This document shows, piece by piece, positions 15,827 through 49,291 of a DNA stretch of 64,000 nucleotides. Numbering within the stretch: position 1 is the stretch's first letter; every line of letters begins with the position of its first letter. Both the position numbers and the translations under genes were made by a program. Source of the DNA: Thermococcus gammatolerans EJ3 (GTDB taxonomy: Archaea; Methanobacteriota_B; Thermococci; Thermococcales; Thermococcaceae); the NCBI RefSeq assembly GCF_000022365.1, contig NC_012804.1:930001-994000 (forward strand). Reading direction: 5' to 3'. The notes beneath the pieces are model-generated. The model was not told the origin of the DNA. It worked only from the letters and a program-made list of their open reading frames with translations, and ran no database searches.

Positions 15827-15880
15827 ACCCCCGGCTGGTAATCACTATCGCCGACAGCGGGGGGACAATACCCCTCGCAC

Positions 15881-16008
15881 GGGCTCGGTCTACCCGCCTC
15901 CGTGAGGTGCTCGGGTTCGATGAACGGAGCGTGCTCACGCCGAGCCCACAGGGCCGGGAGCATCCACCCGTGCGAGCGGTGAGCTCGGGCCTCTGTGCCC
16001 GGCCCACA
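15881..16008 (+). ncRNA. Double-hairpin H/ACA box guide sRNA (candidate)
   Basis: A GC-rich 130-nt stretch shows two hairpins, each with an 8-bp lower stem directly followed by ACA. Hairpin 1 pairs 15881-15888 (GGGCTCGG) with 15940-15947, ACA at 15948; the upper stem pairs CTCCGT (15898-15903) with ACGGAG (15924-15929) and has a GTGAGG/GATGA kink-turn-like tip. Hairpin 2 pairs 15951-15958 (GGGCCGGG) with 15998-16005, ACA at 16006; the upper stem is CCCG (15967) with CGGG (15986). In both, the upper stem to ACA distance is 16 nt, as expected of H/ACA guides. The 3' pocket of hairpin 1 is complementary to CGUGAGC of conserved 23S rRNA. A separate 9-bp stem-loop at 15829-15862 lies before it. 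Confidence 0.72.
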
Positions 16009-16091
16009 CTCAGACAATTTTCGGGGAAACTCCTAAAAATTGAAATCTTTTTCAGTAACTTTGTGCCTTTTCTCAACTCTTTCCACAAAAA

Positions 16092-19455: not shown

Positions 19456-20088
19456 ATGTCCGTCAGGTTGATAGCCTTTGACCTAGAGGGGACGCTCGTG
19501 AAATCAGTTTCGGGATGGGTCGAGCTCCACAAGCGCTTTGGGACGTGGGAAAAGGGTAAGGAGTACGCCGAGATGTTCTTTCGGGGTGAGATAGACTACC
19601 CCACGTGGGCGGATCTCGACGCTTCCCTCTGGCGGGGGCGCAGGCGGGAGGAGATAATGGAGTGGGTGGAGAGCGTTGAGTACATGGACGGGGCCTTTGA
19701 ACTGATCGAGTTTCTTAGGGAGAAGGACTTCAAGATCGCGATACTGAGCAGCGGGCTCATGTGCCTCGCCGAGAAGGTGGGGAAGGAACTCGGGGTCGAT
19801 TACGTCTTTGCCAACGAGCTTGAATTTGACGAAGAGGGGAGAATAACGGGGAAAGTAACACCACACGTGGACTTCGAGGGAAAGGGGACAATCCTCCGCA
19901 GACTCAAGGAAGAGCTTAAACCAGAACTCACGGTTGCGGTTGGGGATGGCTACAACGATCTGGCGATGTTCCGTGAGGCCGATGTCAGCATAGCGATAAA
20001 CCCCCACGAGGGCGTCGAAGGGGATCACGTGGTCGAGAGCCTCCACGAGGTCAGGGAGATAATTGAAGGACTGCTTGAGGAGGAGTGA
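19456..20088 (+). CDS. HAD-superfamily phosphatase, phosphoserine phosphatase-like
   Basis: 210 residues. HAD motif I is DLEGTL (about 9-14), motif II is the Ser in ILSSGL, motif III a Lys before motif IV, and motif IV is VGDGYNDLAMF. A helical cap (residues 20-75) follows motif I, as in SerB. Phosphoserine phosphatase activity is plausible from DxEGT and GDGxND, but archaeal relatives also act on other phosphomonoesters. The ATG at 19456 has GGGGGTGAG just upstream and a TATA box (TTTATAA at about 19417). It is divergent from the KaiC-like gene and followed by two guide RNA candidates on the same strand. Confidence 0.88.
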   Translation: MSVRLIAFDLEGTLVKSVSGWVELHKRFGTWEKGKEYAEMFFRGEIDYPTWADLDASLWRGRRREEIMEWVESVEYMDGAFELIEFLREKDFKIAILSSGLMCLAEKVGKELGVDYVFANELEFDEEGRITGKVTPHVDFEGKGTILRRLKEELKPELTVAVGDGYNDLAMFREADVSIAINPHEGVEGDHVVESLHEVREIIEGLLEEE

Positions 20089-20118
20089 GGTTTTTAAGGC
20101 CGATCCCCAACCCTCTGT

Positions 20119-20178
20119 GGGCCCGGCTGCCCGCCCTCTCCGCTGAGGGGTGATGCGGGGGTTCCGGTCGGGCCTACA
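20119..20178 (+). ncRNA. Single-hairpin H/ACA box sRNA (candidate)
   Basis: A 9-bp lower stem (20119-20127 GGGCCCGGC with 20167-20175 GTCGGGCCT, one G-U) is followed at once by ACA (20176-20178). The upper stem CCCGC (20130-20134) pairs with GCGGG (20155-20159). A kink-turn-like GTGAT lies on its 3' side and a CCCTC/GAGGG tip stem closes the hairpin. The upper stem to ACA distance is 16 nt, as in archaeal H/ACA guides. The 5' pocket is short unless the lower stem opens by two pairs, which leaves the target unclear. Confidence 0.62.
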
Positions 20179-20182
20179 GGGG

Positions 20183-20231
20183 ATGATGACCTTTTGCTTT
20201 GCCGAGCGGTGATGAGCACGCCCTTCCCTGA
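20183..20231 (+). ncRNA. C/D box guide sRNA (candidate)
   Basis: All four boxes are in order: C ATGATGA (20183-20189), D' CCGA (20202-20205, one base off CTGA), C' GTGATGA (20209-20215), D CTGA (20228-20231). Both guides are exactly 12 nt (20190-20201 and 20216-20227) and the D'-C' spacer is 3 nt, the classic archaeal format. GGGG before C and CCC after D can form the terminal stem. It begins 4 nt after the H/ACA candidate and ends just before the stop of the convergent peptidase gene. It should direct 2'-O-methylation at the nucleotide paired five positions from D or D'. Confidence 0.75.
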
Positions 20232-20234
20232 CCC

Positions 20235-21458
20235 TCAAAGTCCGGCCGTCTTCAGCACGAGCCACCAGAACACATCGCCCCAGAAGAAGGCTATGAGGAA
20301 ACCGATGAAGATGCTCGGGGCGAAGGGCATGGCCTTTTTCCTGAGGAACCTGTTCTCGATCTTTCCCTCCTCCACGAGGGCCTTAAGCTTCTCTATCTGC
20401 TCGCGCGAGAGCCCCTCGGCCGTAGGGGACGCGATCACTTCACCCCTCACCGGGGACGTGAGCACGCTTAGATCTCCCTCCTTAATGGCCCTCACGAGCA
20501 GTTCAAAAAAGCCGGAGCGCTCTCTCCTGACCTCACCGTTCTCGATGTAGATGGTCTCCCCGAGGATGTCCCACTCCCCCAGCTCCTCAACCGTTACCTC
20601 CTCCACGAGGGCCTCCTCGCGGAGAACCCTGACGACGGAGAAGAAGACCTTGAACAGGTAAAGCACGACGGCGAGCTTTAGGAAGCCGTAAGCTGCATCA
20701 AGTCCGAGGAGGTACGTGAGGTAGGCGAGGGAAGCCAGACCGATGCCATCACCGACGCGCCGGTACTTTCCAAAGATGAGGATGGTGACTATCGTTAGAA
20801 GGTAGCGCACGGGGGCGGGAAGAGTCCACCCTGCCCTCTGGAGAAGAACTGAGACCGCTACTCCGGCCATGAGCCAGAGCGCCACTTCAACGGAGAGGTT
20901 TGCCTTCTCAAAGAGAACCTGTCTGAGTTTTTTGGTCTTTTTCCTCGCTATCAGCACACCGAGGGCGTAGGCGAAGAGAAAGGGAAAGACCGCGAGGATG
21001 CTGTTGAAGAGTACTGCAATCGGGTAGAGCGGGTATCTGACTTCGTACGGTGCGACAACACGGGCATAATGGAGCGGGTACGGCAGGAGGGCCGAAAAGC
21101 CGGCCAAAACGAGAACGTCGCCTGAAGCCCAGGCCCCGGCGTAGTAGAGGATCAAACCGAGAACCAGGCCAACGAAAAAGCCTATTATCCCGGCGAGAGC
21201 TACCAGGGGATTACCCGATTTCAGGCCGAGGTATAGGTAGATGAGTATCCCCGCCTCAACGGCGGGAACTGGTATCTTCGTTAGAACTGGATTAAGGGGC
21301 ACTTCCTCTTCTTCCTCAAGACCCCTGAGCCTTTCGACCAGAGCGAGGAGGGGAAAAACGTGGTTGTCAAATATGAAGCCGGTCTTGAGGTCGGTGTAAG
21401 AGGTGAGGATTCCCATGAATGATCCAACTAGCAGTATAAGAATCGTAAGGGGATCCAT
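20235..21458 (-). CDS. Archaeal prepilin/class III signal peptide peptidase (A24 family)
   Basis: 407 residues, multi-pass membrane protein. The two catalytic aspartates of type IV prepilin peptidases are visible: D23 in [10 protein letters not shown] and the GD of [13 protein letters not shown]. It is longer than FlaK-type enzymes because it has extra hydrophobic segments and a soluble insert. The ATG at 21458 is preferred over a TTG at 21464 because GAGGGG lies 6 nt before it. It directly follows the class III pilin-like gene (10 bp), its probable substrate. This pairing points to the EppA-type role, cleaving before the hydrophobic helix of QxxxEY-type pilins. Confidence 0.85.
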
Positions 21459-21468
21459 CGGCAACCCC

Positions 21469-47446: not shown

Positions 47447-47798
47447 GGTTCTCTGCATCCGGTGTCCCAAGGGGTGCAGGCTGAGGATCACGGTCGAGGG
47501 GAACGAGGTCCACGTCTCGGGCTTCGCCTGCCTTGAGGGCAAGAGATTCGGGGAGGAGGAAGTGAGGAACCCGAGGCGGATTGTCACGACGACCGTTAGG
47601 ATACTCAACGCCCGCTATCCGCGCCTTCCGGTGAGAACGGCAGAACCCGTGCCCAAGGACAAAATCCGGGACGTTATAGAGGCCCTCAAGGGGGTTGTCG
47701 TGAAGGCCCCGGTTCGGCGCGGCCAGGTTATCGTGAAGGATGTTGCTGGAACCGGTGTTGATGTGATTGCGGAGCGCGATATGGAGGCGGTTGGATGA
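47430..47798 (+). CDS. DUF1667 small Cys-containing protein
   Basis: 122 residues from ATG 47430, with GAGGTG 7 nt upstream. Cysteines CIRCPKGC (about 9-16) and FAC (about 34) could bind a metal or Fe-S centre. DUF1667 genes nearly always follow GlpA/GlpB-type flavoprotein genes in anaerobes, so it is probably a third subunit or electron transfer factor. It overlaps GlpB by 17 bp and the kinase by 4 bp. Confidence 0.85.
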   Translation: MSREYEVLCIRCPKGCRLRITVEGNEVHVSGFACLEGKRFGEEEVRNPRRIVTTTVRILNARYPRLPVRTAEPVPKDKIRDVIEALKGVVVKAPVRRGQVIVKDVAGTGVDVIAERDMEAVG

Positions 47799-49291
47799 GT
47801 TACTACCTCATCCTGGACGTTGGGACTACGAACGTCAAGGCCTACGCTTTTTCCGAGGAGGGGGAGGTGCTCCTGAAGAAGAGCATGAGAACACGGCCCG
47901 TTTATCCGGAGCCTGGCTGGGCCGAACTCGACCCCGAAGAGCTCATTGAAACGGTCAGGCGGCTCATAGACGGGGTTACCTCTTCCCTTGGGATGCCAAA
48001 GGGAATGGCCATCACCAACCAGCGGAGCTCCACCGTCGTGTGGGACGACGAAGGAGCGCTCCACAACATGATAACCTGGCAGGACACGAGGACCAAAGAT
48101 ATCGTGGAGGCCTTTTCCCGCAACTTCCTCGTTCGCTTTGGTAGGGCTCTCGGAAAGGTCTTCTACGGACTCTCCCGCATCGTTCCCGGAATAGCCAGCC
48201 TACCAAAGGGAGCCTATATAATCACCCTGGCCCACGTGGGCTTCGGCACTTCCCACTCCTCGATGCACCTACGCTGGCTAATGGACAACGTGCCAGAAGT
48301 CAGGAAGGCCGTCGAGGATGGAACTGCGAAGTTCGGCACGATGGACAGCTGGATAGCGTGGAACCTGACGGGGAAGCATGTGACGGACTACACGAACGCA
48401 TCCGCGACGGGCCTCTTTGACCCGTTCTACCTCAAGTGGAGCGACAACATCATGGGCATCGTGGGAATTCCCAAGAAAATTCTTCCCGCCCTCCAGCCGA
48501 ACGACCTCCCAGTGGGGGAAACGGACTACGGTGTGCCCCTCCTCACGATGGTGGCGGATCAGCAGGCGGCCCTTTACCGTGCGGGTGTTGAGCCGGGGAG
48601 CGCGAAGATGACCCACGGAACGGGGACGTTCATTGACCTGAACGTAGGCGAGAAGCCGAAGCCAGCGTCGCCAGGCCTCTACCCGATGGTCGCCCTTAAA
48701 ACCAGGAAAAAGACGCTCTACCTCCTCGAGGGAATAATAAACGCCTCCGGCTCGGCCGTTGACTGGCTCCTGAGCGTTGGCCTCATCAAGGACTACTCTG
48801 AGATCAGCGCTGCGTTTAAAGATCCCACCCTTCCAAGGGTGCTCTTCATACCCGCCTTCGCCGGCCTCTCGACGCCCTATCTGAAGCCTGAGTTCAGGGG
48901 AGCGCTCCTCAACCTGTCCTTCAGCGTAAGGAAGGAAGACATCATCAAGGCGCTCATAGCGGGGATAGCGATGAGGGTCGCGGAGGTTATAGCCGCCATG
49001 GAATCGGGAACCGGGGTTGAGATTGGCTCCCTGACCTCCGACGGGGGCGCTTCGCAGATCGACCCGCTCCTGCAGTTGATAGCCGACTTCAGCGGGAAGA
49101 GAATAGTTCGGCCGGTGGAGCTCAACGGCTCCGCGCAGGGAACCTTCATGATAGCACGCGCGGTTGCCGAGGGAAGTGACGTCCTGAGCGCGTGGGAGAA
49201 ACCTATGGTGGAGAGGGTCTTCGAGCCGAGCGGGGAGAAGCACGAGGACTTCAGAAGGCTGTGGGAGGAGTTCATGGGAAGGCTGCTCTGA
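47795..49291 (+). CDS. glpK: FGGY-family sugar/glycerol kinase, probable glycerol kinase
   Basis: 498 residues. The FGGY fold is clear: LDVGTTNVKAYAFSEEG at the start, TNQRSSTVVWD, ITWQDTR, the ATP region THGTGTF and the second signature SDGGASQIDPLLQLIADFSG. Glycerol kinase is the natural reading from the operon, which oxidises glycerol phosphate; another triose or polyol substrate cannot be excluded from sequence. It is the last gene of the operon and overlaps the DUF1667 gene by 4 bp. The 108 bp after it hold the operator array of the next gene. Confidence 0.87.
   Translation: MSYYLILDVGTTNVKAYAFSEEGEVLLKKSMRTRPVYPEPGWAELDPEELIETVRRLIDGVTSSLGMPKGMAITNQRSSTVVWDDEGALHNMITWQDTRTKDIVEAFSRNFLVRFGRALGKVFYGLSRIVPGIASLPKGAYIITLAHVGFGTSHSSMHLRWLMDNVPEVRKAVEDGTAKFGTMDSWIAWNLTGKHVTDYTNASATGLFDPFYLKWSDNIMGIVGIPKKILPALQPNDLPVGETDYGVPLLTMVADQQAALYRAGVEPGSAKMTHGTGTFIDLNVGEKPKPASPGLYPMVALKTRKKTLYLLEGIINASGSAVDWLLSVGLIKDYSEISAAFKDPTLPRVLFIPAFAGLSTPYLKPEFRGALLNLSFSVRKEDIIKALIAGIAMRVAEVIAAMESGTGVEIGSLTSDGGASQIDPLLQLIADFSGKRIVRPVELNGSAQGTFMIARAVAEGSDVLSAWEKPMVERVFEPSGEKHEDFRRLWEEFMGRLL

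Follow-up and report, generated by a model that had tools for sequence, protein, structure and literature searches.

The snoR9 family of Pyrococcus and Thermococcus (Rfam RF00065) combines two classes of guide RNA in a single gene, with an H/ACA hairpin (Pab21) that is followed by a C/D sRNA (sR9), and it has been described in this form in 2008 (PMC2241582) and in 2015 (PMC4652768). The latter account cites RNA-seq data for P. abyssi, the one species for which these sources give co-transcription of the two halves, and the sR9-Pab21 composite as such is in print for P. abyssi, P. furiosus, P. horikoshii and T. kodakarensis. Pab21 of P. abyssi is reported to act as a pseudouridylation guide in vitro (PMC3726423). 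For T. kodakarensis, Table 1 of PMC9014305 lists sR01 (TKOc and Sno. 19) as a circular C/D sRNA of 62 nt at positions 47786-47847, with 395 circular reads among 2,167 aligned ones, compared to 7 among 1,776 in an RNA-ligase knockout, and with a start site at 47910. Note that this circle was undetected by RT-PCR, for which the same source suggests heterogeneous junctions.

The locus studied here is located in a stretch of 64 kb from T. gammatolerans, referred to as the window, whose numbering is used throughout. The RF00065 model matches positions 20119-20245 (+) over its full length (model positions 1-128 of 128) with 107.6 bits and an E-value of 3.8e-24 for the window, the gathering score of the family being 90 bits. 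The composite gene is real and already described, and the T. gammatolerans copy is a Thermococcus member of snoR9 (sR9-Pab21) with the anatomy, order, guides and boxes of the family. The original prediction, made from the sequence of this region, had implied that the combination of H/ACA and C/D guides was novel, a notion that has to be given up, since the pairing was published as snoR9 and is what defines that Rfam family. The published P. abyssi coordinates, 230,449-575(-), coincide exactly with the match that our search retrieved in the corresponding genome (G004). As a separate observation, a second C/D sRNA of P. abyssi (snoPyro_CD, 54.9 bits; L006:1685-1742 (+)) is found in divergent orientation approximately 58 nt upstream of snoR9. 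The sole further Rfam match within the window is HgcF (Pab35), an H/ACA guide RNA at 15850-16019 (+), about 4 kb upstream of snoR9, with a score of 148.6 bits.

All elements of the gene are on the + strand. A TATA-like promoter element, TTTTTAAGG, at 20091-20099 lies some 20 nt upstream of the 5' end of the H/ACA half (20119-20178), whose assignment as the ortholog of P. abyssi Pab21 is based on sequence, Rfam match, fold and covariation in 36 sequences. Its P1 stem, formed by 20119-20127 with 20167-20175, is followed by the pocket with the 5' guide CCCGCC (20130-20135) and the 3' guide UUCC (20162-20165), and then by the upper stem, where C/D-like K-turn motifs can be read in CUGA (20143-20146) and UGAUG (20151-20155). 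The ACA box occupies 20176-20178, and the hairpin thus ends in ACA at 20178 as had been predicted. In the adjoining C/D half (sR9; 20179-20235) a short terminal stem, GGG with CCC, flanks the C and D boxes. The C box ATGATGA (20183-20189), 4 nt after ACA, is followed by a D' guide of 12 nt (20190-20201), the D' box CCGA (20202-20205), the C' box GTGATGA (20209-20215), a D guide of again 12 nt (20216-20227) and the D box CTGA (20228-20231). The complete C/D sRNA expected from 20183 onward is therefore present with all four boxes and with two guides of the anticipated length, each of which pairs with rRNA over 10 nt. In contrast to RF00065 snoR9, where the D' box is the canonical CUGA, it reads CCGA here, and CTGA in most relatives. 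The sequence features of RF00065 are otherwise found, with a 5' hairpin that carries ACA and K-turn motifs, a full set of C, D', C' and D boxes downstream of it, and guides with complementarity to rRNA, for which shuffling gave chance rates of 1.5%, 6.7% and 2%. A strict C/D pattern with up to three substitutions, applied to both strands of the 64 kb, matched the locus in three overlapping registers and one other place, with a background of 0.4 matches on average in each of 20 mononucleotide shuffles. The gene is flanked upstream by that of a HAD-family hydrolase (19456-20088, +) and downstream by the convergent gene of an archaeal A24 (prepilin-type) peptidase (20235-21464, -), whose stop codon touches the 3' end of the sRNA.

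The family was surveyed in 94 Thermococcales genomes. The C/D half is present in 85 of these, 84 being recognized by the exact double guide pattern and G059 with one mismatch, and the pattern had no match in the remaining nine (G003, G034, G045, G046, G050, G052, G055, G063 and G083), three of which (G034, G046 and G055) have a completeness of at least 94%. With a covariance model restricted to the hairpin, 62 genomes scored at least 54 bits, the next score being 40.7 bits. Each of these 62 strong hairpins, including that of G072, which has ACG in place of ACA and was counted as intact, is linked to a C/D half, the spacing from ACA to the C box is 3-7 nt, and the order of hairpin and C/D half is constant wherever the hairpin is present. 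The boxes, on whose conservation in relatives the original prediction had been made to depend, are found in these copies. Some variation was nevertheless seen: the C box has drifted in many Thermococcus copies and reads ATGACGA instead of ATGATGA in 35/85, and CCGA occupies the D position in 25/85 relatives. In nine of the 85 (L032, L033, L034, L076, L077, L080, L081, L104 and L105) the linker between D' and C' is extended, with 27-34 nt instead of the usual 15-17 nt between the guides, and often contains a GC-rich hairpin.

Folding energy and covariation contribute to very different degrees. The hairpin folds with -36.9 kcal/mol and a z-score of -1.91, and as the joined halves reach a z-score of only -0.64, folding energy by itself is weak evidence. 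For covariation we aligned 36 hairpins, a subset of the 62 intact ones chosen so that near-duplicates were avoided. In their stems standard pairs make up 94.4% of the pair cells, both sides have changed in 9 of 16 pairs, and 44 compensated cells were counted, compared to 15.6 in shuffled alignments, none of 500 shuffles being as high. Sliding the stem partners against each other abolished the signal, and the stems are weakest at the base of the upper stem, whose lowest pair is unpaired in 16 of the 36 rows. Among the lines of evidence read from sequence, it is conservation that argues strongly for the locus.

The search for targets was conducted in rRNA, with numbering counted from the start of the Rfam match. 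Matching the C/D guides to rRNA, as had been suggested along with the prediction, yielded 10 Watson-Crick pairs with 23S rRNA of the same genome for either guide, from which 2'-O-methylation is predicted at G207 for the D' guide and at G55 for the D guide, and both sites also occur in 23S rRNA of P. abyssi and T. kodakarensis. Equal pairing was obtained with 295 of 20000 shuffled D' guides, with 1347 of 20000 shuffled D guides and with 299 of 20000 random 12-mers from the window, and because shuffled guides reach such lengths, matches in a single genome are only suggestive. The core of the D' guide is identical in all 85 genomes and that of the D guide in 84, a single base being changed in the remaining one. 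The H/ACA pocket fits best at U870 of 16S rRNA (U879 in P. abyssi), in the context GGAA-UU-GGCGGG, where UUCC pairs with GGAA and CCCGCC with GGCGGG. These 10 Watson-Crick pairs leave one base of the pocket unpaired, a C at hairpin position 18, and the site is unique in the 16S plus 23S rRNA of three species; a perfect site was obtained for 409 of 20000 shuffled H/ACA guides. The pairing of the 5' guide is kept in 59 of 62 genomes, varying by C-to-U, and that of the 3' guide in 61. In the published in vitro substrate of Pab21 the target U is directly followed by another U (PMC3726423), and the UU at position 870 fits this description, so that we infer U870 to be the pseudouridylation target of the H/ACA half. 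Another candidate was U1066 of 23S rRNA (U1084 in P. abyssi), derived from a 5' guide of 9 nt. It is not strictly excluded, but was dropped as the target would be followed by A rather than by the U of the Pab21 substrate, and as U870 gives 10 Watson-Crick pairs. Near-invariance together with pairing to rRNA makes it likely that both guides are functional. For the H/ACA half, in vitro activity is published for Pab21 of P. abyssi; the methylations are predicted from target pairing.

With respect to transcription, 60 of the 62 linked loci have a TATA-like 8-mer at 18-30 nt upstream of the hairpin, compared to 4-17 of 62 for other, equally sized windows, and at this distance before the C/D half it occurs in none of the 62. 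As to genomic position, and excluding three extra loci, two repeats in G059 and one chance match, the sRNA shares its strand with the A24 peptidase in 66/85 genomes and, again in the intergenic region of these genes, with the HAD hydrolase in 10/85, the window being one of the latter; both orientations thus occur between the same two convergent genes (20089-20234 in the window). In the remaining nine, the Pyrococcus group (g3), neither gene adjoins the sRNA, and unlike the copy described here, those of this group lie elsewhere.

The hairpin is not retained throughout. An intact one is missing from 23 of the 85 genomes with a C/D half, comprising all 12 C/D-bearing members of group g4, 2/2 of g2, 1/1 of g6, 2/7 of g5, where both share a common deletion breakpoint, and six genomes of g1. 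Among the latter the hairpin is absent in G041, G067, G054 and G064 and eroded in G056 and G066; eroded copies were classified by eye on sequence and folds, and losses were counted by structure only. In hairpin-less loci a TATA-like 8-mer is located 18-30 nt before the C/D half in 13 of 23 cases, a figure that is the weaker for AT-rich regions also scoring 6-11 of 23 in control windows. In the eroded copies the promoter stays approximately 75-80 nt away, with the former hairpin site in between. Neither a hairpin nor a promoter at the usual place is found in G054 and G064, where the peptidase stop codon marks the start of the C/D half. With the hairpin gone and the C/D half beginning directly at that stop codon, the C/D half of L104 and L105 may derive by cleavage from the mRNA 3' end. 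The C/D half from one hairpin-less genome (L045) is recognized as snoPyro_CD (RF00095, 48.2 bits), a stand-alone sR9 with no hairpin upstream. Among the seven covariance-model matches below 41 bits that were inspected (L106-L112), none was an unlinked copy of the H/ACA guide, the matches lacking the UUCC guide or being other H/ACA RNAs. Three of these weak matches (L106, L107 and L110) are tandem H/ACA hairpins with a different guide, some of them in genomes without snoR9. With 62 of 85 hairpins intact, 23 missing and all hairpins linked, the H/ACA half is therefore a losable cassette between the promoter and a constant C/D core, and it was lost or eroded several times. We found no description of repeated hairpin loss with retention of the C/D half in the snoR9-family literature covered, most of the relevant older papers being outside that coverage; the observation may be new, although such a negative is no proof of novelty.

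How the two halves are matured can be approached with the data from T. kodakarensis. Mapped to the genome of this species (G023), the circle at 47786-47847 is exactly the C/D half of snoR9. It begins one base downstream of the C adjoining ACA, the published position holding within 5 nt, and the start site (47910) precedes the hairpin by two nt. The 5' end of a precursor is thus at the hairpin, and the C/D half also exists alone. sR01 is accordingly the C/D half of the same family; the table in PMC9014305 contains this part only, and the H/ACA half is implied by the start site. From these data and the promoter analysis we consider it very probable that one promoter produces one primary transcript with two guide modules that are later separated. 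The single composite transcript of both guide classes that the original prediction had put forward is supported by the one TATA-like box before the hairpin, the lack of one between the halves, and the co-transcription published for P. abyssi. The alternative given there, a processing of one RNA by the other, does not follow from the T. kodakarensis circle, which consists of the C/D half alone and shows that the halves become separated. From a single RNA polymerase promoter, a precursor with both modules would arise, on whose L7Ae-binding K-turns both RNPs would assemble co-transcriptionally. The H/ACA module with Cbf5-Nop10-Gar1-L7Ae would pseudouridylate U870 of 16S rRNA, and the C/D module with L7Ae-Nop5-fibrillarin would methylate G207 (D' guide) and G55 (D guide) of 23S rRNA at the 2'-O position. 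A cut close to the ACA box, a few nt away at most, would yield two RNAs, one H/ACA and one C/D, the latter of which could be ligated into a circle. The separation in T. gammatolerans, its cutting agent and the use of both halves in vivo are presumed.

Other arrangements have to be weighed against this one. That the halves are chance neighbours, or that just one of them is a real RNA, would be in line with joined halves that fold no better than shuffled sequences and with guide pairings that are individually weak, yet covariation, 62 linked copies in 94 genomes, the Rfam match and published expression in relatives all oppose such a reading; conservation rules it out, and we assign it practically no probability. 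A stable composite RNP, in which one mature RNA retains both guides, has a precedent in human scaRNA U85, described as a composite C/D-H/ACA scaRNA in PMC4041459, and the narrow spacing from ACA to the C box in all 62 linked loci would suit it, as would the fact that neither the relocation in the Pyrococcus group nor the orientation relative to the flanking genes has altered the order. U85, however, is a eukaryotic Cajal-body RNA, a single stable molecule with localisation signals of its own, and the halves of snoR9 likely mature separately, so that the resemblance is one of analogy and not of membership. As a C/D-only circular RNA is reported for T. kodakarensis, 23 of 85 genomes have the C/D half without an intact hairpin, and the predicted targets are divided between the two subunits, 16S and 23S, a stable composite appears distinctly unlikely.

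The dependence could also run from one half to the other, the assembly of the C/D RNP and the ligation of the C/D RNA setting the 3' end of the H/ACA RNA. Since the start of the T. kodakarensis circle lies one base beyond the C following ACA, a single cut could serve both RNAs. Strong hairpin matches never occur without a C/D half, and a terminal stem of 3 bp is possible in 85/85 loci if an offset of one nt and G-U pairs are allowed. On the other hand, HgcE, HgcF and HgcG of the same genome mature with no C/D partner found within 300 nt, as judged by the strict pattern with its limited sensitivity, and the hairpin may depend on the promoter only. We therefore regard maturation of the H/ACA half by the C/D half as rather unlikely.

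The separation of two modules from one precursor leaves room for a further, tentative interpretation that we consider possible, if on balance improbable: the hairpin would be an optional cassette that is parasitic on the constant C/D gene, uses the C/D promoter and obtains its 3' end from the cut that frees the C/D RNA for circularisation. As lineages lose the hairpin cleanly and the distance between promoter and C/D half stays the same, the guided pseudouridine would then be dispensable, and the two methylations would not. The value of the survey lies in a natural experiment, with the pseudouridine guide missing from 23 of 85 genomes and both methylation guides nearly unchanged. It makes two questions accessible, namely which of their rRNA modifications are dispensable to hyperthermophilic archaea, and whether both classes of guide RNA are matured by a single processing cut.
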